Assembly (NCBI GenBank): GCA_016209205.1
Contig: JACQWQ010000179.1
Location: forward strand, 1-43,039
Source: Chloroflexota bacterium
GTDB lineage: Bacteria; Chloroflexota; Anaerolineae; UBA4142; SHND01
DNA length: 43,039 bases
Reading direction: 5' to 3'
Positions 30,656-43,039 of this stretch are shown in pieces. Made by a program: the position numbers and the translations under genes. The notes below the pieces were generated by a model, which saw only the letters and a list, made by a program, of their open reading frames with translations, did not search any database and was not told the origin of the DNA. The first letter of the stretch is position 1; each line of letters begins with the position of its first letter.

Positions 30656-31165
30656 TCATTTCCAGAACTCATCCAACTGTTTCACGGGGGAACGATATCC
30701 AGTGTCTATCATCTCTTGCAAGATACTATTCGCTTCCGCGAGGGACAGACCAATTTTCCGCGCGAGAATCAATGCGCCCACTGTTCCAATCACGTCTACA
30801 CCCTTTGCCTTTGCCAATTTTCGCGCCGCCAAATCATCCGTTCCCAAAACGTAATGCCGGTGCAAAGCGATGGCGAGACAGCTCGCTTCCCCCGCATGTA
30901 GCCGCAAACGCAATTCTCGAAAGGTTACAAGTTCTTTTGGCTCGAGCGAAACAATTTGCAACGGTGAATTCTCTCCAAGCAACGATGTTTCCAACGCGTT
31001 CAAGTGACTGTATCCTGCTTGAACTCCATCGCTGATTTCACTCACAACTTCGGGCGTCGTACAGAGAGGACGGTCTAATGCGCGCGTCAATAGCTCCGTG
31101 CGTTTGGCAGCGGCAAAATTCGACAACAGCGTTGTGTTACAGACAACCGTCTTAGCCGCGTTCAA
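30656..31165 (-). CDS. PIN-domain toxin (DUF3368-like)
   Basis: From a TTG at 31165, nine bases after AGGAG, it has about 169 residues; a GTG at 31183 is an alternative. VVCNTTLLSNFA at the N-terminus is the first acidic-motif region with Asn in place of the usual Asp. HAGEASCLAIAL, VLGTDDLAARKLAKAKGVDVIGTVGALILARKIG carry the central Glu and the Asp pair, and EANSILQEMIDTGYRSP ends it. Such proteins are ribonuclease toxins of type II pairs. Its expected UPF0175 antitoxin is adjacent but frameshifted. Confidence 0.8.
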   Translation of the reverse strand: MNAAKTVVCNTTLLSNFAAAKRTELLTRALDRPLCTTPEVVSEISDGVQAGYSHLNALETSLLGENSPLQIVSLEPKELVTFRELRLRLHAGEASCLAIALHRHYVLGTDDLAARKLAKAKGVDVIGTVGALILARKIGLSLAEANSILQEMIDTGYRSPVKQLDEFWK

Positions 31166-31402
31166 AGGCAGACAACTCCTCACGCAGTTCGTCGGCGCTT
31201 GCTGGACCAAGATGAATCGGGATACCCGCGCGGAGCAAGAGCTCCTTCATCTCTTCCGCAGACACACCCATCAGTTCGGCTGCTTTGCCCAAGCTAATGT
31301 CGCCAACCTGATATGCAACGCGCTGCGCCATACGGCATCGGCGTCCGCGTACAAACCCGAGCGCACGAGATAATTGATTTGCCATTCCTGCTTGACCGTC
31401 AT
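31152..31402 (-). pseudogene. UPF0175 antitoxin, frameshifted with internal deletion
   Basis: The ATG at 31402 has AAGGAG seven bases upstream and reads MTVKQEWQINYLVRSGLYAD, then ADAVWRSAL, the UPF0175 N-terminus. That frame soon ends at a stop. The UPF0175 C-terminus (VGDISLGKAAELMGVSAEEM, then KELLLRAGIPIHLGP) is in another frame down to 31152. Between RSAL and the second part, about 15-20 family residues are missing. The simplest reading is an out-of-frame deletion that destroyed the antitoxin. The C-terminal frame alone can be opened to 31424 but lacks a ribosome site there. Confidence 0.8.
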
Positions 31403-31463
31403 GTTCCACTCCTTGCTGCGACAATTCTACTAAACCCGCGCAAAATTGGCAACCGCAAAAAAC

Positions 31464-33040: not shown

Positions 33041-34816
33041 TTAACCTGCGCGCATTGCGCGCGTCTTCACGTCATCCACCGCGAGCGGTTCCGCTTCCAA
33101 TGCGACGCCGTATTCGCGTTCTGCGGACGCGAATGAAACTTTGCCATCGCGCACGTCGCGCAGAACGGCTTGCGGATCGCGATCGCGCGGCTCGCCATAA
33201 CCGCCGCCGCCGGGCAAGCGCAGGGAAACGACATCGCCTTTTTTCAATTTGTCGAGTCCTTTGGATTTCAGCGGACGTTCGTCGGGCGAATCGGGATTCA
33301 AAATAAATTTTCCTTTTGCCCCTTCTTTGCCGCCAAACAGACCGAACGCGCCGTACACTTGACGGTCGCCGTAGCGCGCAAAGGACATGTCGTCAATCAA
33401 CATGCGAATATCGCGCCGCAAACCCAACGCGCCGCGAAATTTTCCCGCGCCGCCGGTGTCGGAAATGAATTCGTAACATTCGACGCGCGCGGGAAATTCG
33501 AGTTCCACCGCTTCGACCGGCGTATTCAAAAAGCGCGCGAGGTGCGAGTCCTGCCCATCGCGCCCGTCTTTGCAAAAACGCGCGCCTGCCCCCCCCCCTT
33601 GAATGTCAATGTACACAAAACGTTTGCCCGATTCGTGCGCGGTTGCGCTATGATAACCGCTGAAACCACAGTTGGTGATTTGTCCGTGCGACCCCGCCAT
33701 GACGCGTTCCGGCAACGCCTGCGCGAGCGCGAGCAGCATCGCTTCCGTAATTTTTTGCGACGTTTGCGTACGCGCACCGCATGCGCGCGGCAAGCGTGGA
33801 TTCACCACCAACCCTTCACGCGCGCGCACTTCGAACGGACGATAGCAGCCGGAATTGGGCGCAACGTGCGGGTCCACCACCGCGATCAACGCGTAATACA
33901 CCGCCGCGTGTACGGTCGCCAACGGACAATTCACATTGCCCGGCACTTGTTCATCCGTGCCGTCGAAATCTACAATCGCGTGGTCGCCTTGTTTGTGAAT
34001 GTTGACTTGCAACTTGATGGGCTTGCTCGTCAAACCATCGTCGTCCACATAATCCACGCCGGTATATGTGCCGTCAGGAACTTTTTCCAAGCCCGCGCGA
34101 ATTCTTTTTTCGGAATAGTCCAACAGCGCGTCCGTGTGCAATTGCACGACAGCGGGCGTATAGCGTTCGAAAATTTCTCTTAATCTTCGCGCGCCGACAA
34201 AATTCGCGGACGCTTGCGCGCGAATATCGCCGAGCGTTTTATCGGGGACCCGAATGTTGTTGTTGAGAATACCGAACAGTTCCGCGTCCTCTTGCCCTTT
34301 TTTGTACAGCTTGACCATCGGAAAGCGCAGACCTTCTTGATAGATTTCGGTCAAGCCACCTTGCGTGCCGCCCGGCGCCGCGCCGCCCAAATCCGCATGA
34401 TGCGCCATTGAGCCGACAAACCCCACCAGTAGGGGCGCACCCTTGTGGTCGCCCTTTCCGCGCGAGGGATAAAACACGGGCGCGAACGTGACCAAATCCA
34501 TCACGTGCTGCCCGCCGTTGTACGGGTCGTTAAACACAATCACGTCGCCGTCGTTCAAGTCCTGATCGCGGAATTGCGCGCGCAGATGCCGCATCCCCAA
34601 TTCAAAACCGGTGAGCAGCATCGGCGCGTGGTGCGCCTGCGCGATGGTGTTGCCATTGCGGTCGAATACCGCGCACGAAATGTCTTTGATTTCTTTGATG
34701 ACCGTCGAGCGCGCCGTGCGAATCAACGTGTGTCCCATCTCGTCCGCGATTTGTTCCATCGCGTAACGGAGGACTTGCATCAATACAGGGTCGGCGGTTG
34801 TTTTTTTCTTTGGCAT
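33041..34816 (-). CDS. hydantoinase B / 5-oxoprolinase (HyuB) family subunit
   Basis: A 591-residue HyuB-type protein. DPVLMQVLRYAMEQIADEMGHTLIRTARSTVIKEIKDISCAVFD starts it, followed by HHAPMLLTGFELGMRHL, DVIVFNDPYNGGQHVMD, LVGFVGSMAHHADLGGAAPGG, the GHGQITNCGFSG-like SHGQITNCGFSGYHS, and LPGGGGYGEPRDRDP at the end. These enzymes are ATP-dependent amidohydrolases acting with HyuA on hydantoins, 5-oxoproline, or, in relatives, on acetone or acetophenone. Residues 121-130 (KGDHKGAPLL) come from an inserted repeat. A coding-strand run of ten G encodes glycines in DIQGGGAGARF. HyuA lies 6.4 kb upstream instead of adjacent. Confidence 0.9.
   Translation of the reverse strand: MPKKKTTADPVLMQVLRYAMEQIADEMGHTLIRTARSTVIKEIKDISCAVFDRNGNTIAQAHHAPMLLTGFELGMRHLRAQFRDQDLNDGDVIVFNDPYNGGQHVMDLVTFAPVFYPSRGKGDHKGAPLLVGFVGSMAHHADLGGAAPGGTQGGLTEIYQEGLRFPMVKLYKKGQEDAELFGILNNNIRVPDKTLGDIRAQASANFVGARRLREIFERYTPAVVQLHTDALLDYSEKRIRAGLEKVPDGTYTGVDYVDDDGLTSKPIKLQVNIHKQGDHAIVDFDGTDEQVPGNVNCPLATVHAAVYYALIAVVDPHVAPNSGCYRPFEVRAREGLVVNPRLPRACGARTQTSQKITEAMLLALAQALPERVMAGSHGQITNCGFSGYHSATAHESGKRFVYIDIQGGGAGARFCKDGRDGQDSHLARFLNTPVEAVELEFPARVECYEFISDTGGAGKFRGALGLRRDIRMLIDDMSFARYGDRQVYGAFGLFGGKEGAKGKFILNPDSPDERPLKSKGLDKLKKGDVVSLRLPGGGGYGEPRDRDPQAVLRDVRDGKVSFASAEREYGVALEAEPLAVDDVKTRAMRAG
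34429..34454. repeat. 26-bp repeat inside hydantoinase B, identical to 39723-39748
   Basis: The stretch starting GTAGGGGCGCACCCTTG is exactly repeated at 39723-39748 in a noncoding gap. In the gene it encodes GDHKGAPLL in frame within a segment where relatives pass directly from FYPSRG-like residues to LVGFV. It looks like a repeat insertion tolerated in a loop. Confidence 0.8.
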
Positions 34817-34838
34817 ATCATCCTCTATGGTTGCGTGA

Positions 34839-34860
34839 TATAATTTGAGTGGAGGCGCTT
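34839..34860 (+). promoter_or_regulatory. conserved leader of module 1 (-10 TATAAT plus GGAGGCGC ribosome site)
   Basis: TATAAT at 34839-34844 is followed almost directly by GGAGG (34851-34855) and the ATG at 34861, so the leader would be very short. The context GTTGCGTGATATAATTTGA closely matches GTTGCATGATATAGTTTGA at module 2. Confidence 0.55.
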
Positions 34861-35316
34861 ATGAAAGTTGTGACGATTAGAGAACACTCGTCTTTGTACA
34901 GTACAGAGCCAGCTCTGACGATTGAATCGGTTATTGGCGAAGTTCAAGAGACGAACGAACCCTTGATTTTGGTGCGCGATGATAAACCCGTCGTGGCGGT
35001 GATTCCATTTTCAGATTATGAGCGCTTTACTCGGTGGCGCGAGACTGAGATGCCGCCGCGCGAGGCGGCGGATAATGGTTTTGAACGGGAACATGCCGCA
35101 TTTCAGCGCCTCAAGCCGGATTTATTGAAAACGCATTACGGACTGTATGTTGCAATTCACAATGAACAGCTTGCCGATGCCGACTCGAGTGATAGTGAGC
35201 TCGCAAAGCGAATTTATGCCAAACACCTCTTTCCTGTTGACATCGAATTGGTGAGTAACGAGCTACAAAGCTTTGAGAATCCATCACCGGAAGAGGTTTG
35301 GGATGTATCACTTTGA
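34861..35316 (+). CDS. Phd-like/DUF5678 fusion protein, module 1
   Basis: A 151-residue protein from the ATG at 34861, with GGAGG six bases upstream. Residues 1-60 read as a Phd/YefM-type antitoxin fold (PLILVRDDKPVVAVIPFSDYERF). After a charged linker, FEREHAAFQRLKPDLLKTHYGLYVAIHNEQLADADSSDSELAKRIYAKH is a DUF5678-type segment. No toxin follows; instead its last 14 bases overlap a retropepsin-like protease gene. A second copy of the same gene pair lies at 40407-41196. The Phd part may bind DNA and autoregulate, and the protease could process it or a shared target. Function unknown. Confidence 0.75.
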   Translation: MKVVTIREHSSLYSTEPALTIESVIGEVQETNEPLILVRDDKPVVAVIPFSDYERFTRWRETEMPPREAADNGFEREHAAFQRLKPDLLKTHYGLYVAIHNEQLADADSSDSELAKRIYAKHLFPVDIELVSNELQSFENPSPEEVWDVSL

Positions 35317-35677
35317 CAATACATCGAAACCACCTGCGCCTTATCTCGAGGTTTTTGTTCGCCATCCTCAAACGCGCGCCGAATTTAAGGTTGCCGCGAA
35401 ATTGGATACTGGCGCATCCAAAAGTGCGATTCCAGCCGCTATTGCCGTGGCGTTGAATTTGGAAACGATGGGCAAGCTCATGGTGCAAGGTTTCAATCAA
35501 GTGTCCGACAAGTATCCTGTTCACTATGTCGAGCTTGAGGTCGCAGACCTTAAATTGCCCATGTTTCCAGTCATTGCTCTCCCGCGTAAAGACATACTCT
35601 TGGGACGCGACATCCTCAATCACTTTATCATTACGCTCGACGGCAAAGCGCTCACCTTTGACATACGTGACCCGTAA
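35303..35677 (+). CDS. retropepsin-like (clan AA) aspartic protease, module 1
   Basis: A 124-residue protein from the ATG at 35303, preceded by GAAGAGG; a longer in-frame opening at 35273 is less likely. VAAKLDTGASKSAIPAAIA is the DTGA catalytic motif of retroviral-type aspartic proteases, and ALPRKDILLGRDILNHFIITLDGKALTFDI is the conserved second half (LLGRDILN). One DTG per chain means it must act as a dimer. No membrane span is seen. It overlaps the Phd/DUF5678 gene and so is co-translated with it. Substrate unknown. Confidence 0.85.
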   Translation: MYHFDNTSKPPAPYLEVFVRHPQTRAEFKVAAKLDTGASKSAIPAAIAVALNLETMGKLMVQGFNQVSDKYPVHYVELEVADLKLPMFPVIALPRKDILLGRDILNHFIITLDGKALTFDIRDP

Positions 35678-35683
35678 CGCCGC

Positions 35684-36382
35684 ATGGAACACAAGCCGCT
35701 CGTTCTCGTCGTGGACGATGAACCGGGCATCCTCGACATCGCGCAGATGTATTTGACCCGCGAAGGGTTCCGCGTCGCGTTCGCCCGCGATGGACAAGCC
35801 GCGCTGGATGCCGTCGCCCAAGAAACTCCCGCGCTCGTTATCCTCGACTTGATGCTGCCCCAAATAGACGGTTGGCAAGTTTGTCGTCAACTCCGCCGCG
35901 CGTCCAACATTCCCATCATCATGCTCACCGCGCGCGATGAGGACGTGGACAAAATCGTCGGTTTGGAGCTCGGCGCCGACGACTATATCACTAAACCGTT
36001 CAATCCACGCGAATTGACGGCGCGGGTCAAAGCCGTATTGCGCCGCGCCGCCGCGTCGGCAAATACTACCGCGCCGCCGCTTGTGCGCGTCGGCAGCTTG
36101 TCGCTCGATCGCGTCAGTCATCGCGCGCAGGTTCACGCGCAGCCGCTCGAGCTCACGCCCCGCGAATTCGACTTGATGTGGACGCTCGCAAACAACGTCG
36201 GCAAAGTTTTCGAACGCGAGCAGCTGCTCGAGCAGGCGTGGGGTTATGATTTCCCCGGCGGCACGCGCACGGTGGACATGCACATCGCGCAATTGCGCCG
36301 CAAACTCGCCGCCGCCCACGCGGACGATGTGACCATCACGACTTTACAGCGCGTGGGCTATCGTTTGGATATCCAGACCTGA
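35684..36382 (+). CDS. OmpR/PhoB-family response regulator
   Basis: A 232-residue regulator. The receiver has VVDDEP (acidic pair at 11-12), the phosphoacceptor Asp55 (ALVILDLMLPQIDG) and Lys104 in DYITKPFNP. The winged helix follows: LELTPREFDLMWTLANNVGKVFEREQLLEQAWGYDFPGGTRTVDMHIAQLRRKL. It begins six bases after the protease stop. Its last residues (QT) and stop codon are provided by a palindromic repeat (36375-36440) that separates it from its kinase. Confidence 0.96.
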   Translation: MEHKPLVLVVDDEPGILDIAQMYLTREGFRVAFARDGQAALDAVAQETPALVILDLMLPQIDGWQVCRQLRRASNIPIIMLTARDEDVDKIVGLELGADDYITKPFNPRELTARVKAVLRRAAASANTTAPPLVRVGSLSLDRVSHRAQVHAQPLELTPREFDLMWTLANNVGKVFEREQLLEQAWGYDFPGGTRTVDMHIAQLRRKLAAAHADDVTITTLQRVGYRLDIQT

Positions 36383-36440
36383 CAGGTTTTCGCCGCGACC
36401 GTCAAATTCCACACGGATGTGTTGGAAACCTGTCAGGTCT
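36375..36440. repeat. inverted-repeat element (AGACCTGACAGG family), copy B
   Basis: AGACCTGACAGGTTT (36375-36389) and its exact reverse complement (36426-36440) bracket a 36-base centre. The stop codon of the response regulator is inside the left arm, as in copy A at 24199. Confidence 0.85.
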
Positions 36441-36447
36441 TGTTCAA

Positions 36448-37845
36448 ATGTTAAAGAGTTATCGCGCGCGTTTGCTCCTCGCGTTTCTCGGCGCGATTCT
36501 GGCTTCCCTCGCGCTCTTTGCCGCGTTGACGCTCACGCAATTCGTCAACTATAGCCGTCAAACTCGGCTTGAAGAACTGCATCTACGGCTCAAATTGACG
36601 AGCACGTGGGTCGAACCCCTTGCGCCGCAAACCAAGGATGCGCTGCATAATGTCAGCGCCGACTGGGGCGCGGCGTTGTTTCTGATTTACGGCGACGCGA
36701 CGCGCGCGCGTTTTTACGCCACCGATGGTTACGCGATTCCCGACGCCGATGCGGGACGCATCAAAGGTATTCTCGACCGCGAACTTGTACAGCCGCGCGC
36801 CGCGCAGTTCGACAGCGGCGACCTCGTCATTGTCACGCAGCCCGTCATCACCGCCGACCAAACCCCTGCCTTGCTCGCGGCAGTGCTGCCCGCCGCGAAT
36901 TTGACCGCCGGCTGGCGGCGGCTGCTCGATGCGATGCTGTACGCCGCGCTGTTTGGCGTAATTCTTTCGCTGCTGCTCGCGCTAATTTTTTCGCGTTCGC
37001 TCGCGCGTCCCGTCACGCGCCTCATCGCCGCATCAGAGCGCATCGCGCAAGGCGTGTATGACGACCCGCCGCTCCCCGCCGACGCGAACGAATTGGGACG
37101 CTTGACCCGCGCGTTCAATGCGATGCGCGAACGCGTGCGCCAAGCCCAACAGCAGCAGCGCGATTTTTTGACGAACGTTTCGCACGACCTCAAAACGCCG
37201 CTCGCCATCGCGCAGGGTTACGCCAGCGCGCTCGCCGACGGCGCCGCCGACGACGAGGATTCGCGTCAACGCGCGTTCGCGGGAATTCAACGCGAGACGG
37301 AACGCATGACGCAGCTCATTGCCGCGCTGCTCGAACTCGCGCGCCTCGAAGCGGGCTTGACCCCATTCAAGTTTGTCGCATTGGACATGACAACTTTAGC
37401 GCGCCAAGTTCTCACCGATTTGGCGCCGCAAGCGCAAGCACAAGAGCTCAAGTTGCTTGACGAACTGCCCGCCGCATTGCCCGCCATTCCAATTGATGCG
37501 CTGCAAATGGAGCGCGTGCTGGTGAATCTGTTGGACAATGCTTTGCGCTTGACGCCGCGCGGCGGCGCGATTCGCGTCGGCGGCGCGGTTCAGGCGGAAA
37601 ACCAAATTGCGTTGTGGGTGCAGGACAGCGGTCCCGGAATCGCGCCCACGGCATTGCCTCACATCTTTGACCGTTTTTACCAAGCCGATGCGGCGCGTTC
37701 GCCCCAACGCGCAGGCAGCGGTTTAGGTTTGACGATTGCGCGCGAAATCGTGATGCGTCACGGCGGCGAACTGAGCGTCGCGAATGAAAGCGGTCACGGC
37801 GCGCGCTTTACCATTCTCCTCCCCAGCTCCCGTGCGGGCGAATAA
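36448..37845 (+). CDS. sensor histidine kinase (HAMP-HisKA-HATPase)
   Basis: A 465-residue kinase. Membrane spans lie at about 8-30 and 160-183, enclosing an extracytoplasmic sensor of roughly 130 residues. A HAMP linker (SRSLARPVTRLIAASERIAQGVYDD) follows, then the phospho-His246 in FLTNVSHDLKTPLAIAQGYAS. The ATPase domain has MERVLVNLLDNALRLTPRGG, VQDSGPGIAP, IFDRFYQ and GSGLGLTIAREIV. Partner of the OmpR-type regulator just upstream. Signal unknown. The stop codon merges with the first unit of the tandem hairpin array. Confidence 0.96.
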   Translation: MLKSYRARLLLAFLGAILASLALFAALTLTQFVNYSRQTRLEELHLRLKLTSTWVEPLAPQTKDALHNVSADWGAALFLIYGDATRARFYATDGYAIPDADAGRIKGILDRELVQPRAAQFDSGDLVIVTQPVITADQTPALLAAVLPAANLTAGWRRLLDAMLYAALFGVILSLLLALIFSRSLARPVTRLIAASERIAQGVYDDPPLPADANELGRLTRAFNAMRERVRQAQQQQRDFLTNVSHDLKTPLAIAQGYASALADGAADDEDSRQRAFAGIQRETERMTQLIAALLELARLEAGLTPFKFVALDMTTLARQVLTDLAPQAQAQELKLLDELPAALPAIPIDALQMERVLVNLLDNALRLTPRGGAIRVGGAVQAENQIALWVQDSGPGIAPTALPHIFDRFYQADAARSPQRAGSGLGLTIAREIVMRHGGELSVANESGHGARFTILLPSSRAGE

Positions 37846-38178
37846 ATTCGCGCCAACACCTACACGAAACCTGCCTTCGCAGGTTATTGCCAGTCTGCGG
37901 AGGCAGACTTGGCGTCTTTGTTGCTGCGGTTTCTAACCGCAATTCATTCAGGCAATTCAATTCGCGCCAACACATACACGAAACCTGCCTTCGCAGGTTA
38001 AACTCCCCAGTCTGCGGAGGCAGACTTGGCGTCTTTGTTGCTGCGGTTTCTAACCGCCCGCAATTCATTCAGGCAATTCAATTCGCGCCAACACCTACAC
38101 GAAACCTGCCTTCGCAGGTTGAACTCCCCAGTCTGCGGAGGCAGACTTGGCGTCTTTGTTGCTGCGGTTTCTAACCGC
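37845..38178. repeat. three tandem copies of a triple-hairpin unit
   Basis: Units begin at 37845, 37959 and 38080 (114, 121 and about 99 bases, the last one ending after the third hairpin). Each has the same three stems: AACCTGC-CTTC-GCAGGTT, AGTCTGC-GGAG-GCAGACT and GCGGTT-TCT-AACCGC. In copy 1 these are at 37868-37885, 37892-37909 and 37926-37940. UUCG/GGAG-type tetraloop-like centres make stable RNA folds likely if transcribed. A reading frame through it exists but only mirrors the repeat. Confidence 0.92.
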
Positions 38179-38309
38179 TCAAACCCCTTTACAACCCCTT
38201 TACAAATCCCTTACCAGAACCTGGTGAGTCGGTAACACGCGCCTGCTACGATTCTGTGCAGATAACACCCTCGCCTACGCGCGAGCAAAAAACAAAAGGA
38301 GTCAAAACT

Positions 38310-39611
38310 ATGAACACCATTCTTCGCGCAGGATTCGCGGCGCTGGTTCTGGCAATCACATTCTTGCTGACCGCCGGAAACTCGGGCGCAGATTTTTCGC
38401 GTGACGCGAACATTGCGCGCGCGGCAAACCGCGCGCTTCGCCATCACATCTTTGTGGACGGGCCCAATCCCCTCTGTTCCGACGACAACCCCGGGACCAA
38501 GAATCGTCCGCTCTGCACCATCCAAGTCGCCGCAGACCGTAGCGCGCCCGGTTCAATAATTCACGTCCGCGAGGGCGTCTATCCCGAAATGGTGCGCGTT
38601 CACATCTCGGGCGCGCCCGGCGCGCCGATTCGCTTTGTCACCGACAACCAAGGCCACGTCGTGATTGATTCCCCCCGCGAAGCGGGTTTCGACCTCGTGA
38701 ATGTGACGCACATCAAGATTGGCGGTTTTGAAATTACCGGCGCGTGGATGCCAGAGACAGCGACGGCGAACGCCGCAGAACTGGGGCGTCCCGCGCACGG
38801 CGGCGGCATTCGCGCGGTGCGCGTCCACAAGAGCGTCTTTGCGCGCAACGTCATTCACGACAATGACGCCGGGATATGGCTCGCCGAAAGCAACGCCAAC
38901 AAAATCCACAATAACGTGCTTTACCAAAACGGCGAGGCGTCTGTGCGCGTCAAACGCGGACATCACAACCGCATCTACAACAACCTGATTTTCAACAATG
39001 GCACGCGCGAACGCTGGGGCATCACCTTTTACTGCGCGCTCGGGACAAAGGTCTATCACAATACAGTCATCGAGCCGAGCGGCGGCGCAATTTACATCTA
39101 CGAAGGCACTGCTAATCTCACCGGCACCCCACCGGGCGATCCAGGTTTTTGCATCCCCAGCAACGATACGCAAGTGTATGACAATCTCGGCGTCGTCATC
39201 GGCAAGCTTGCGGGTGAAACCGCGCCGCTCGTCATTGGCAGCAGCACCACGACCGACCGCCCCGACATTCTCGAACAGTTATACGGACCGCTGACCAATC
39301 AATATCACCACAATCTTTTCTACAACCGCTTTTTTGAAGCGGACGTGGTGAGCTGGGGTGATTTCGCCGAGCGTCTCACGTTTGCGTACTATGACCTGTT
39401 GAACCTCGCCGAATTTCAACAGAAAGCTCCGGGCTATGGCGCGGACTCGTTGACCGACAATCCATTGTTCGAGGACCCGCTCCACAACAACTTTAAGCTC
39501 GCCGAGAACAGTCCCGCCAAAGGACAAGCTTCGGATGACAGCGATCTGGGCGTAAATTTCCAAACACTGCCCGCCGTCAACTATGACGCGCTGCCCAGTT
39601 TCTGGGAATGA
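38310..39611 (+). CDS. secreted right-handed beta-helix protein (NosD/pectate-lyase-like fold)
   Basis: A 433-residue protein from the ATG at 38310 with AAAGGAG upstream. MNTILRAGFAALVLAITFLL then TAGNSGA is a signal peptide. FVDGPNPLCSDDNPGTKNRPLCTIQVAADRSAPGSIIHVREGVYPE is the DUF1565-like entry of a beta-helix. It is followed by solenoid turns (NVIHDNDAGIWLAESNANKIHNNVLYQNGEASVRVKRGHHNRIYNNLIFNNG). A C-terminal DNPLFEDPLHNNFKLAENSPAKGQA is usual for polysaccharide-active or structural family members. No catalytic residues can be named. The two-component system upstream may control it. Confidence 0.85.
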   Translation: MNTILRAGFAALVLAITFLLTAGNSGADFSRDANIARAANRALRHHIFVDGPNPLCSDDNPGTKNRPLCTIQVAADRSAPGSIIHVREGVYPEMVRVHISGAPGAPIRFVTDNQGHVVIDSPREAGFDLVNVTHIKIGGFEITGAWMPETATANAAELGRPAHGGGIRAVRVHKSVFARNVIHDNDAGIWLAESNANKIHNNVLYQNGEASVRVKRGHHNRIYNNLIFNNGTRERWGITFYCALGTKVYHNTVIEPSGGAIYIYEGTANLTGTPPGDPGFCIPSNDTQVYDNLGVVIGKLAGETAPLVIGSSTTTDRPDILEQLYGPLTNQYHHNLFYNRFFEADVVSWGDFAERLTFAYYDLLNLAEFQQKAPGYGADSLTDNPLFEDPLHNNFKLAENSPAKGQASDDSDLGVNFQTLPAVNYDALPSFWE

Positions 39612-39960
39612 CGCCGTGTGTGTTGGAACACGAGTACAACCGATGGAACACAAATTGTACTCGTGTTCCCGCTGCATTGTGGAGCCCATCAAATCGAATG
39701 ATTCACTTGGCGAAGTGCATTTGTAGGGGCGCACCCTTGTGGTCGCCCATCCACTGGGCAAGGACAAGCCATTGCCCCTACGATTTCGCCAACAGCGTCA
39801 TCGAATTTGACGCCTCAACAAGGCGGCGGAAAAAACAATGCGAATCCAAACGCGCGTCCTTTCGCCTGCTTTGTTTCTCACAACACTTTGTTGAGGCGTC
39901 GAAGGCGATGCAGTTCATCGCACCATTCGATGCTGAGCATTGCGGAATATGAGTTATAAT
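39612..39960. repeat. gap with three different inverted repeats and a dispersed 20-bp element
   Basis: GGAACACGAGTACAA (39625-39639) pairs with TTGTACTCGTGTTCC (39655-39669). GTAGGGGC (39723-39730) pairs with GCCCCTAC (39774-39781), and the former opens the 26-base stretch also found in hydantoinase B. GACGCCTCAACAA (39809-39821) pairs with TTGTTGAGGCGTC (39888-39900). Copy 3 of the dispersed 20-bp element is at 39903-39922. A TATAAT at 39955-39960 probably serves the next gene. Confidence 0.85.
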
Positions 39961-39986
39961 CAACGCGCTTCGACGAGGTGATGCAA

Positions 39987-40325
39987 ATGGCAAGAAAAAC
40001 TATTCGCGAAAGCCAAACCAGTTACACCGTGCAAATGAAAGCGAACGAGACGCTTGATAAACCAATCATCGTCAGACGGAATGGCAAACGCTTTGCCGCG
40101 CTCGTTCCGCTAACCGATTACCAAGAGTTTGTCGCGTGGAAGAAAAAGCACCGCGCGCTTACACCAAAATCAACGCGGCGCGCGCGTGTCCCGCGCAAGC
40201 GCAAACAAAGCAAGCTCACCGACTTGATTGGAATCATTCAAGCCGAACCCAGCGGCGAAAAAATTGACTTTTCCGAGTTCATGAACAAGCATGGCTATGA
40301 ACAAATTGACCGCGACGATTCATGA
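39987..40325 (+). CDS. lone Phd-like antitoxin-type protein
   Basis: A 112-residue protein from the ATG at 39987, eight bases after GAGG and 27 after a TATAAT; ATG 39981 is possible. Residues 1-50 (SQTSYTVQMKANETLDKPIIVRRNGKRFAALVPLTDYQEFVAWKKK) fit a Phd-type fold. A very basic linker (TRRARVPRKRKQSK) and a helical end follow. No toxin gene is downstream; module 2 begins 80 bases later. It may belong to the neighbouring Phd/DUF5678-protease module or be an orphan. Confidence 0.65.
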   Translation: MARKTIRESQTSYTVQMKANETLDKPIIVRRNGKRFAALVPLTDYQEFVAWKKKHRALTPKSTRRARVPRKRKQSKLTDLIGIIQAEPSGEKIDFSEFMNKHGYEQIDRDDS

Positions 40326-40383
40326 TTTTGCCATTTTCATTTTCACTTGCAATCCAAATCTGGTCGCTGCCAATGTTGCATGA

Positions 40384-40406
40384 TATAGTTTGAACGGAGG
40401 CGCAAA
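40384..40406 (+). promoter_or_regulatory. conserved leader of module 2 (-10-like TATAGT plus GGAGGCGC)
   Basis: TATAGT lies about 20 bases upstream of the ATG at 40407 and is followed by TTGAACGGAGGCGCAAA. Apart from a few bases this matches the leader of module 1 at 34831-34860, supporting a shared control mode. Confidence 0.5.
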
Positions 40407-40829
40407 ATGTCAATGGCTATCGTAAAAGAATCGTCTTTGGGTTATACCGCAGAAATCGAACGAGTCAAGGCAACTGGCGAGCCGCTTGTTATAGAAGGGG
40501 ACGGCAAACCCCTGCTCGTCGTTCTTCCTTATGCCGAATACGACGCGTTGGTCAAGCAGAAGCTACAAGAGCAACGCAAAGCGTATATGGATGTATTTGA
40601 ACGCGAGCGCGCCGCGTTTGAAAAATTAAAACCACAGCTGCTTGAAACTCATCTCGGACAATATGTTGCAATTCATGATGGACAAGTTGTTGATTCGGGG
40701 ACGTCTGATACAGAACTTGCCCAACGCGTTCTGCCGCGCTTTCGAAATCAAGCGGTTTATATACAACTTGTGCAAAAAGAATTGCCCGTCTATGAAATTA
40801 CATCGCGTGAGGAATTGACCCGTGCCTGA
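40407..40829 (+). CDS. Phd-like/DUF5678 fusion protein, module 2
   Basis: A 140-residue paralogue of the module 1 protein. The N-terminal Phd-like part reads EIERVKATGEPLVIEGDGKPLLVVLPYAEYDALV. FERERAAFEKLKPQLLETHLGQYVAIHDGQVVDSGTSDTELAQRVLPRF is the DUF5678-type part, and it matches the corresponding stretch of module 1 closely. Its stop overlaps the GTG start of the next protease gene by eight bases. Same gene order, same overlap style and same leader as module 1. Confidence 0.78.
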   Translation: MSMAIVKESSLGYTAEIERVKATGEPLVIEGDGKPLLVVLPYAEYDALVKQKLQEQRKAYMDVFERERAAFEKLKPQLLETHLGQYVAIHDGQVVDSGTSDTELAQRVLPRFRNQAVYIQLVQKELPVYEITSREELTRA

Positions 40830-41196
40830 ATACGACCTCCGTGAGCGACCGCCCGCGCCCATCGCTACCCTTGTTGTGACAAATTTTGAAAACGGCAAAA
40901 GTATCTCACTGCGCGGCAAGTTGGATACGGGCGCATCCATTTCAGTTTTGCCCCTGTCCGCACTTGACCTCTTGGAACTGTATCCGAAAGGTGAAACGGC
41001 GATCGTTGGATACGACGGCACACGCACTGTGCGCGAAATTTATTATGCAGATTTGGAAATCGAAAGTGTTCGCTTGGCAAGTGTGCGCCTGACCACGACC
41101 CCGCGCGATGAAATGCTGTTGGGACGCGATGTTCTGAATCAATTTCTCATTATCCTCGACGGCAAAGCCCAAACGTTCGAAATGCGCGCGACATAA
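40822..41196 (+). CDS. retropepsin-like (clan AA) aspartic protease, module 2
   Basis: A 124-residue protein starting at the GTG at 40822. LRGKLDTGASISVLPLSALDLL has the catalytic DTGA, and TTPRDEMLLGRDVLNQFLIILDGKAQTFEM the second half. It matches the module 1 protease over its whole length, at roughly 40 percent by eye. Like that protein it would be a homodimeric aspartic protease without a signal peptide. The stop is followed by a hairpin that separates it from the convergent hydantoinase A gene. Confidence 0.85.
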   Translation: MPEYDLRERPPAPIATLVVTNFENGKSISLRGKLDTGASISVLPLSALDLLELYPKGETAIVGYDGTRTVREIYYADLEIESVRLASVRLTTTPRDEMLLGRDVLNQFLIILDGKAQTFEMRAT

Positions 41197-41198
41197 AG

Positions 41199-41221
41199 GA
41201 GACGTTTCACCGAAACGTCTC
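41199..41221. terminator. hairpin between convergent genes (AGACGTTTC repeat family)
   Basis: GAGACGTTTC-ACC-GAAACGTCTC is a perfect 10-bp stem located exactly between the protease stop and the hydantoinase A stop. It lacks a U-tract, but its position suggests a terminator or end-stabilising role. The same stem occurs after the Rid gene at 11813. Confidence 0.55.
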
Positions 41222-43039
41222 TACAAATCAATCACGATATTCCCCCACCCATCCAATTTCGCGGTTGCCCCCGGAATCACCACCGTCGTCGAAATGATTT
41301 CTTCGATGATACAAGGCCCCTTGACCGTCATCCCCGGTTTCAACAAATCGCGTTCATACACGGGAACATTCACATAACCGCGTCCGGCGAAATATACGCG
41401 ACGTTTGTTTTTCAATGCCGTCCGCGCGGTTTGTGTCGCGCGTTTGCGTTTTGGCAATTTCACATCGGGCACTTGACCGATGCCCGTGAGCCGCACGTTG
41501 ATGACATCCACACCCTCTTGCTCGGAACTATAGGCGTACACCTTTTCATGCAGCGCGTGAAAATGCGCCACCGTCGCGTCAATTTCTTTGCGCGTCAAGT
41601 GTCCGTTGTGAATGACTGGCACGTTCAATTCGTATGCCTGCCCCGCATAGCGCAAATCCGCCGTCCATTGAATTTCAATATCCTCCGCCGCGATTTTTTC
41701 TTCCGTCAACGCGGCGCGCGCTTGTTGCTCCATCGCGTTGTACGCGCGTTCCAACGCATCGAGGTCGAGCGACGACGCGGGTTTCGCAATCGTCTGCACG
41801 TAATCGTGTCGAATGTCGCTCGTGACCAAACCGAATGCGGAAAACGCGCCGGGGTACAGCGGCACGACGACTTTTTTCATTCCCAAATCTTGCGCCAATT
41901 CACACGCGTGCAGCGGACCCGCGCCGCCGAACGCGAGCAGCGTAAATTCGCGCGGGTCGAATCCCTTTTCAATCGAACTGCCCGCCATGCCCTTGACCAT
42001 GTTCGCGTTGACGACGCGCACAATGCCGTACGCGGCTTGCTCAATCGTCATGCCCAGCGGCTGCGCGATATATTTTTCAATCGCCGCGTGCGCGCGTTCG
42101 GGGTAGAGTTTGATTTCGCCGCCGAGAAAATATTCGGGATTCAATCGTCCCAAAACCAAATTCGCATCGGTGACGGTCGGACGTTCGCCGCCCACGCCGT
42201 AACACGCGGGACCGGGGTCGGACGACGCGGACTGCGGACCGACATTCAATGCGCCGCCCGCGTCCACCCACGCGATGCTCCCCCCCCCCGCACCGAGTGC
42301 ATGCACATCCACCGCAGGAATTTTTACGGGATAACCCTCGAACTTGCCTTCGGACGAAATGCGCGGCGCGCCGTCAATGATGAGACCGATGTCGAAACTC
42401 GTCCCACCCATGTCCACCGTCATCACCTGTTTATCGCCAAGCAGCGTCCCAATGAATGCGCCCGCGACCGTGCCGCCCGCGGGACCCGAATTGACAATGT
42501 TGACCGCGTGCTCGCGCGCCGCCTCCGCTGAAATCGCGCCGCCGCTTGCCTGCATGATGCGCACCTGCACCGCACCATATTTTTCATTCAGCATCGTCGT
42601 CAAATTGTGCAAATACCGTCCAACAATTGGCTGCAAGTACGCGTTGATGACCGTCGTAGACGTGCGCTCGAATTCGCGGAACTCGGGACAGATGCTCGAC
42701 GAAAGCGACACAGGCGCTTCGGGAAAAATTTCCTGACAAATCTCTTTGACGCGCTGTTCGTGCGACGGATTCAAAAAGGAAAAGAGCAAGCACACGGCGA
42801 TGGTTTCAACGCGCTGCGCTTTTAAATAATTCACCGCGCGCACGACGGAATCTTCGTCGAGCGGATGCACCACATTGCCGTGCGCTTCAATGCGTTCATC
42901 CACTTCGGCGCGCAAAAAACGCGGCACGAGCGGCTCGGGCGTATCCACCAAAAAGTCGTACAACCCTTCGTCGGGACGCTCGACGCGCGCGATTTCCAAA
43001 ACATCGCGAAAACCGCGCGTCGTAATCAGCCCCGTGCGC
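41221..43039 (-). CDS. hydantoinase A / 5-oxoprolinase (HyuA) family subunit (5' end missing)
   Basis: The frame is open to the right edge (about 605 residues present, starting RTGLITTRGFRDVLEIARVERP), so roughly the first 80-100 residues are outside. Landmarks are DGLYDFL-type DEGLYDFLVDTPEPLVPR, SLSSSICPEFREFERTSTTVINAYLQPIVGRYL, MQASGGAISAE, NSGPAGGTVAGAFIG, VTVDMGGTSFDIGLI (nucleotide-binding), HALGAGGGSIAWVDAGG and the C-terminal GPCIIEEIISTTVVIPG. With HyuB it forms an ATP-dependent hydrolase or carboxylase-like enzyme. A coding-strand run of ten G encodes AGGGS. Confidence 0.92.
   Translation of the reverse strand, partial: RTGLITTRGFRDVLEIARVERPDEGLYDFLVDTPEPLVPRFLRAEVDERIEAHGNVVHPLDEDSVVRAVNYLKAQRVETIAVCLLFSFLNPSHEQRVKEICQEIFPEAPVSLSSSICPEFREFERTSTTVINAYLQPIVGRYLHNLTTMLNEKYGAVQVRIMQASGGAISAEAAREHAVNIVNSGPAGGTVAGAFIGTLLGDKQVMTVDMGGTSFDIGLIIDGAPRISSEGKFEGYPVKIPAVDVHALGAGGGSIAWVDAGGALNVGPQSASSDPGPACYGVGGERPTVTDANLVLGRLNPEYFLGGEIKLYPERAHAAIEKYIAQPLGMTIEQAAYGIVRVVNANMVKGMAGSSIEKGFDPREFTLLAFGGAGPLHACELAQDLGMKKVVVPLYPGAFSAFGLVTSDIRHDYVQTIAKPASSLDLDALERAYNAMEQQARAALTEEKIAAEDIEIQWTADLRYAGQAYELNVPVIHNGHLTRKEIDATVAHFHALHEKVYAYSSEQEGVDVINVRLTGIGQVPDVKLPKRKRATQTARTALKNKRRVYFAGRGYVNVPVYERDLLKPGMTVKGPCIIEEIISTTVVIPGATAKLDGWGNIVIDL

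Follow-up and report, generated by a model that had tools for sequence, protein, structure and literature searches.

What is a retropepsin-like protease doing behind a gene that looks like an antitoxin? The question is raised by a contig of 43,039 nucleotides (nt) from a Chloroflexota bacterium of the class Anaerolineae (JACQWQ010000179.1 in assembly GCA_016209205.1; contig C135 of a 6.4-Mb genome), hereafter called the window, in which two small genes, here named D and P, follow each other at two sites (Table 1). The first-pass annotation had described this pair in the same order at both sites, with reading frames overlapping by 14 and 8 nt, and the coordinates and reading frames agree with that description. 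The copies are homologous in protein alignments (39% identity and E 1e-32 for D1 and D2; 35% and 2e-27 for P1 and P2), and their layout, two small co-directional overlapping genes with the antitoxin-type gene first, is of the toxin-antitoxin (TA) type. Our reading, to which comparison of sequences gives about an even chance, is that of a module resembling type II TA systems, the effector of which would be a retropepsin restrained by D.

The protease side is the better defined. P1 and P2 carry both clan AA motifs, as DTGA...LLGRD, and both pass the Pfam cut-off of gag-asp_proteas (PF13975; 6.6e-10 and 1.3e-7). All 44 sequences of alignment A2 have the catalytic Asp and, in LGR, the Gly-Arg pair; in a set of 143 distinct, almost completely covered proteases, 141 have D[TS]G (the exceptions being L105 and one copy in L203) and 140 have [LIVM][LIVMA]GR. 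The protease profile matches the HTLV, HIV and DDI1 proteases in PDB (best 6.4e-9). The ratio of nonsynonymous to synonymous substitution rates (dN/dS) is 0.185 for P1 (against genome G199) and 0.092 for P2 (against G065), indicating purifying selection; for comparison, it is 0.088 for D2 (against G065) and 0.096-0.13 for the flanking gene that we take to be hyuB, while the dS of D1 could not be estimated. The proteases are expected to be active enzymes. Retropepsins work as homodimers and, by analogy, P probably does so as well. On the partner side, both D proteins match PhdYeFM_antitox of Pfam at about 9e-6, under the family cut-off, and the NCBIfam phd_fam cut-off has D2 above and D1 below it. 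DUF5678 (PF18929) matches D2 at 4.4e-4, under the cut-off, and D1, which has no Pfam match in this region, aligns to D2 there; within the family, 43 of 44 D proteins match DUF5678 at E up to 0.1.

A genome-wide search for adjacent DUF5678 and clan AA genes had been proposed in the first-pass annotation; once run, it returned a pair that recurs widely within the class. The 150 DUF5678 and 150 protease matches that Pfam lists for 199 genomes of the class yield at least 45 D-P pairs in at least 31 genomes, against about 0.04 expected under random placement with an assumed 4.5 Mb per genome. In these pairs D is always upstream and on the same strand, no reversed or opposite-strand pair being present among the matches listed. 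Class-wide, DUF5678 is found in 86 and the protease in 82 of the 199 genomes. While this count uses Pfam alone, a second scan, of named genomes, started from the protease alone, with ten RHH-type (ribbon-helix-helix) protease queries taken from paired proteases: 76 of its 80 loci have D upstream, and of the other four, three begin at the very edge of a contig and the fourth is a protease fragment. Altogether, 133 of the 143 distinct proteases follow a DUF5678 protein, eight follow an AF2212-like protein and two lie at contig edges, and a partner is present for 141 of the 141 with enough upstream sequence, bearing in mind that profiles A1 and A2 were built from Pfam-chosen pairs and their counts lean toward paired members. 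The genes overlap by at least 1 nt in 96 of 120 pairs, and by exactly 4 nt in 68, when the protease start codon nearest to the D stop is taken. The idea of unrelated small neighbours, brought together by chance or by annotation, could appeal to the sub-threshold Pfam matches of the window D proteins; it is rejected by the excess of pairs and the complete pairing, and we regard its probability as negligible.

Within the window's own genome, DUF5678 adjoins, or shares a chain with, seven of the ten Pfam protease matches (the window and C151 account for two each, C84, C121 and C219 for one each), and the three other PF13975 members (C13, C97, C222) have no DUF5678 neighbour. The unpaired protease on C222, below the cut-off, is followed by two genes that are presumably HicA-like and HicB-like. 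In a scan of 201 genomes of the phylum, for which the listing gives the class in part, five match at 1e-10: the genome of the window and four more from its class. A first genome scan with one single protein as query gave no match.

The Phd/DUF5678 partner put forward at first pass holds for the window pair but not as a general rule. When the heads of the 133 DUF5678-type partners are counted with our own iterated profiles, RHH is the commonest (96), followed by 23 that are neither RHH nor Phd and 14 that are Phd, and the eight AF2212-like partners are without DUF5678. Of these 23 others, two have heads that match DUF2281 (4.6e-4 and 5.9e-5), and in a set of four similar heads a single one matches Unstab_antitox (0.0096), each match being under the cut-off; 13 have no recognised head. 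Against solved structures, the RHH profile finds CopG (1.9e-4) and VapB26 (2.2e-3), with a designed non-RHH protein between them (3.3e-4). On a tree of 135 proteases, in which about half of the forks are unresolved, parsimony requires 14 head changes where the minimum possible is seven. Heads are exchangeable on DUF5678 partners. Two Phd-DUF5678 partners (L223, L225) have an extra N-terminal extension, which in L223 looks MerR-type by eye.

DUF5678 also keeps other company. A short DUF5678 gene lies directly upstream of a CCA-adding-type nucleotidyltransferase with a PolyA_pol head in L143, L144 and L152, and is fused to one in L139 (assigned by Pfam for the neighbour in L143 and the fusion in L139, and by eye for L144 and L152). 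DUF5678 frames of 550-620 amino acids (aa) among the class-wide matches may represent the same fusion.

Not only the head but the whole partner can differ. The eight proteases with an AF2212-like partner form one supported clade (99), the AF2212 name being taken from weak matches (best 0.001). Searching with this partner gave 21 matches: a protease lies downstream in nine, one of them (L237) with a stop codon; in L236 and L240 the partner stands beside an internally deleted protease; L239 has no protease; and in L245 the partner is broken and there is no protease. The L236 locus is on contig C126 of the window's own genome, where an intact partner is accompanied by a protease that lacks the active-site half. 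With tails of other kinds, AF2212-like proteins stand ahead of PIN genes in L248, L254 and L255 (9e-15 to 2e-19) and, with a partial match, in L253 (4.7e-6), and a PemK gene in L250 (4.3e-11); the protease thus occupies the toxin slot. After the AF2212-like match in L247, L249 and L251, neither a PIN nor a PemK gene was recognised; the next gene in L251 resembles, by eye, a C39-type cysteine peptidase, so that a different protease may occupy the slot there.

The two genes do not decay alike. In 12 loci an open-frame partner accompanies a broken protease, nine of them with frames checked (L146, L151, L159, L161, L164, L173, L190, L213, L223) and three with an AF2212-like partner (L236, L237, L240), while the reverse case was found in 0 of 141 (two-sided sign probability under equal chances, 4.9e-4). 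Five further partners stand without any protease (L158, L160, L163, L006, L239). Whether a partner was intact was judged from its domain coverage, an open frame beginning with a start codon and the residues ahead of DUF5678; those that are short belong to the types without a recognised head or, as L068 does, lie at a contig edge. Kept outside the count were L145 (D broken too), a locus with masked bases, L105 (protease start lost and reading DAG; it passes the coverage rule and is within the 143) and a rearranged second copy on contig C151 with a stop in the protease. Errors of assembly would be expected to strike either gene equally often. The 12-to-0 pattern favours, and does not prove, a protease held in check.

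If so, the first gene would provide a modular antitoxin-type protein, with an exchangeable DNA-binding head, the DUF5678 domain and a short C-terminal tail, and the second, translationally coupled to it, the protease. D would bind and silence the protease, perhaps with its tail in the cleft, and would repress the operon; should stress, degradation or disappearance of the locus remove D, the protease would be set free to cut cell proteins, and growth would be stopped or reprogrammed. This reading fits best given the layout, the coupling, the exchange of heads and of whole partners, the toxin-slot position and the one-sided decay. What stands of the first-pass proposal of a TA-like or regulated-proteolysis module is a recurrent two-gene module laid out like a TA system, in which a retropepsin gene follows that of an antitoxin-type protein; we infer that the protease is toxic and inhibited by D, as well as its targets, the autoregulation and the role of the tail. 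A bolder version, tentative and on balance unlikely, has a retroviral-protease-like toxin and a substrate-like antitoxin tail, often SPR, borne on various heads, with one peptide motif for DUF5678-type and AF2212-like partners. In an alignment of eight AF2212-like proteins, seven show SPR or SPH and one shows TPR, and the likeness of DUF5678 tails to these may be coincidence. Excess mutual information between tail and protease is raised in the tail columns and in other columns too; with kinship as a confounder, the co-variation gives no conclusion.

The main rival, which we hold to be possible though on the improbable side, is a switch like ImmA/ImmR: D would be a repressor and the protease its anti-repressor, a signal leading to cleavage of D, possibly at the tail, and to derepression of the operon or other genes, with no toxin involved. 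CapP/CapH is a like switch. Partners that outlive the protease would then be permanent repressors, and cleavage could plausibly take place in the extended tail, which some family members have in an SPR-like form. Such a switch predicts, however, that the loss of D is about as harmless as the loss of P, whereas the losses number 12 to 0; partners in which no head is recognised still pair with a protease; and ImmA has HEXXH, whereas P1 and P2 are aspartic. The layout equals that of the COG2856 Zn-protease/Xre pairs (PMC2701414). Considerably less credible is a stable complex for regulated proteolysis, in which a housekeeping protease would have D as a lasting subunit or as the partner that targets it, with autoregulation and without a toxin role. 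The natural DUF5678-protease fusion, the partners without a recognised head, the presence of DUF5678 with an unrelated enzyme and the purifying selection would all suit it, but the patchy multi-copy distribution, the presence or absence of the module at one site, the head exchange and the repeated protease decay would be unusual for a housekeeping enzyme, and some proteases have AF2212-like partners without DUF5678.

Several observations weigh against a retropepsin restrained by D. Thirteen units have no recognised head and in one case, on C219 of the window's own genome, DUF5678 and protease are fused in one chain, so DNA binding is not essential; nor is DUF5678 a dedicated inhibitor, since a CCA-adding-type enzyme can also be its neighbour or fusion partner. 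Most of the Phd and DUF5678 matches in the window, and of those behind the AF2212 name, do not reach curated cut-offs. As to the tail motif, no more than 52 of 132 DUF5678 partners have a strict [ST]P[RH], and both window tails lack it, with SPE and SRE instead. The partner-only loci could be repressors retained for another reason. Finally, the named loci are nearly all from Chloroflexota, many of them Anaerolineae, with one from Dadabacteria and one titled "bacterium"; the RHH-type protease L095, queried there in place of the window proteases, is unmatched in plasmid and phage collections, and there are two weak relatives in viral contigs.

Table 1. Features of the two module copies and their surroundings in the window
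Feature	Position	Strand	Description
D1	34861..35316	+	151 aa, ATG; Phd-like head, DUF5678-type domain, short C-terminal tail; candidate antitoxin/regulator
P1	35303..35677	+	124 aa, ATG; retropepsin-like protease; 14-nt overlap with D1
P1 catalytic motif Asp-Thr-Gly-Ala	35405..35416	+	Asp codon 35405-35407; from translation
D2	40407..40829	+	140 aa, ATG; Phd-like head, DUF5678 domain, tail
P2	40822..41196	+	124 aa, GTG start; retropepsin-like protease; 8-nt overlap with D2
P2 catalytic motif Asp-Thr-Gly-Ala	40924..40935	+	Asp codon 40924-40926; from translation
Leader of copy 1	34830..34860	+	TGATATAAT (extended -10-like) and GGAGG site; in short gap to divergent hyuB
Leader of copy 2	40375..40406	+	Same element as 34830-34860, nearly identical (alignment)
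Phd3	39978..40325 (ATG at 39987)	+	Third Phd-like gene, just upstream of copy 2; Phd E 0.03, weak
hyuB-like gene	33041..34816	-	Flanks the module, outside it; marks insertion site; from synteny
hyuA-like gene	41221..42999	-	Other flank, outside the module; directly adjoins hyuB in module-less genomes

Both window copies are preceded by a common leader. Outside the window this leader, with TGATATAAT and GGAGG, turns up in a genome of the same genus; L201 (genome G065) has the same one and L116 (G137) a similar one. We infer that it acts as a promoter; its presence ahead of both copies is suggestive, and only that, of operon autoregulation. Phd3 has a C-terminus of its own and no recognised toxin of its own, and is possibly accessory to the module; its relative in G065, 79% identical, is located after the protease instead of before D.

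The surrounding genes also record the history of the site. The flanking genes are, by our naming, hyuA and hyuB, the latter presumably of the hydantoinase/oxoprolinase B type. The module lies between them, antisense to both, in G000, G199, G178, G205 and G137, the protease of G178 being broken (L190), and in G065 it adjoins hyuB, hyuA falling outside the stretch examined. The two genes adjoin without a module in G204, G206, G004, G149 and five more distant genomes (L349, L350, L351, L353, L356). Copy 1 is closest to the G199 module (68/73%) and copy 2 to that of G065 (83/84%). A general link of the module to hyu genes is rejected, and no third gene recurs, the largest neighbour family being present in six of 98 module loci. 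Elsewhere in the window, a UPF0175 gene overlaps a DUF3368/PIN gene at 30656-31424 (-), resembling an ordinary VapBC-like pair, with both PIN-side matches below the cut-off, and a tandem array (121-bp unit x2.8, 94% matches) lies at 37845-38178, between a histidine kinase and a beta-helix gene.

How does the pair compare with what has been described? Among known defence families, PADLOC gave weak matches only (best 0.0057), and no description of the pair was found in the literature searched on DUF5678, on bacterial retropepsins and on aspartic or clan AA proteases with toxin-antitoxin, a scope outside which most subscription papers and preprints fall. The results suggest an undescribed toxin-antitoxin-like system with a protease effector. 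Were this true, a group of bacterial retropepsins would gain a role and a partner, TA-like modules would have an aspartic protease among their effectors, a protein that naturally inhibits a retropepsin (or is its substrate) would be at hand, and DUF5678 would have its first testable function.

Like the Rlo proteases of Pseudomonas aeruginosa, which are described as secreted, with signal peptides, and acting in osmotic stress (PMC12239564), P1 and P2 are bacterial retropepsin-like aspartic peptidases; unlike them, they follow an antitoxin-type partner and have no signal peptide that could be seen by eye. The COG2856 Zn-protease/Xre pairs also have a protease gene that probably shares an operon with the gene of a DNA-binding regulator, one of a kind that accompanies ordinary toxins too, ImmA being required for the proteolytic inactivation of ImmR (PMC2701414); that family has an HEXXH metalloprotease and an Xre partner, whereas here the protease is a DTG aspartic one, with RHH, Phd or AF2212-like partners, and neither D1 nor D2 has an Xre head. 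The terms "aspartic protease" and "aspartyl protease" do not occur in the text of PMC2701414. Within clan AA, the small retropepsin-like proteins of PF13975 and TIGR03698 are the nearest in kind: P1 and P2 lie above the cut-off of the former but, at 32.0 and 26.8 bits, under the 57.35-bit cut-off of the latter (clan_AA_DTGF). Type II TA systems, such as Phd-Doc, VapBC and MazEF, differ in the effector, here a retropepsin-like aspartic protease for which toxicity is a proposal and whose family gave no plasmid match with the L095 query. With those that have Phd/YefM, RHH or AF2212-like antitoxins, the module shares a regulator gene placed first and overlapping a small effector gene, exchangeable antitoxin-type heads, and an effector that decays while its partner is kept.

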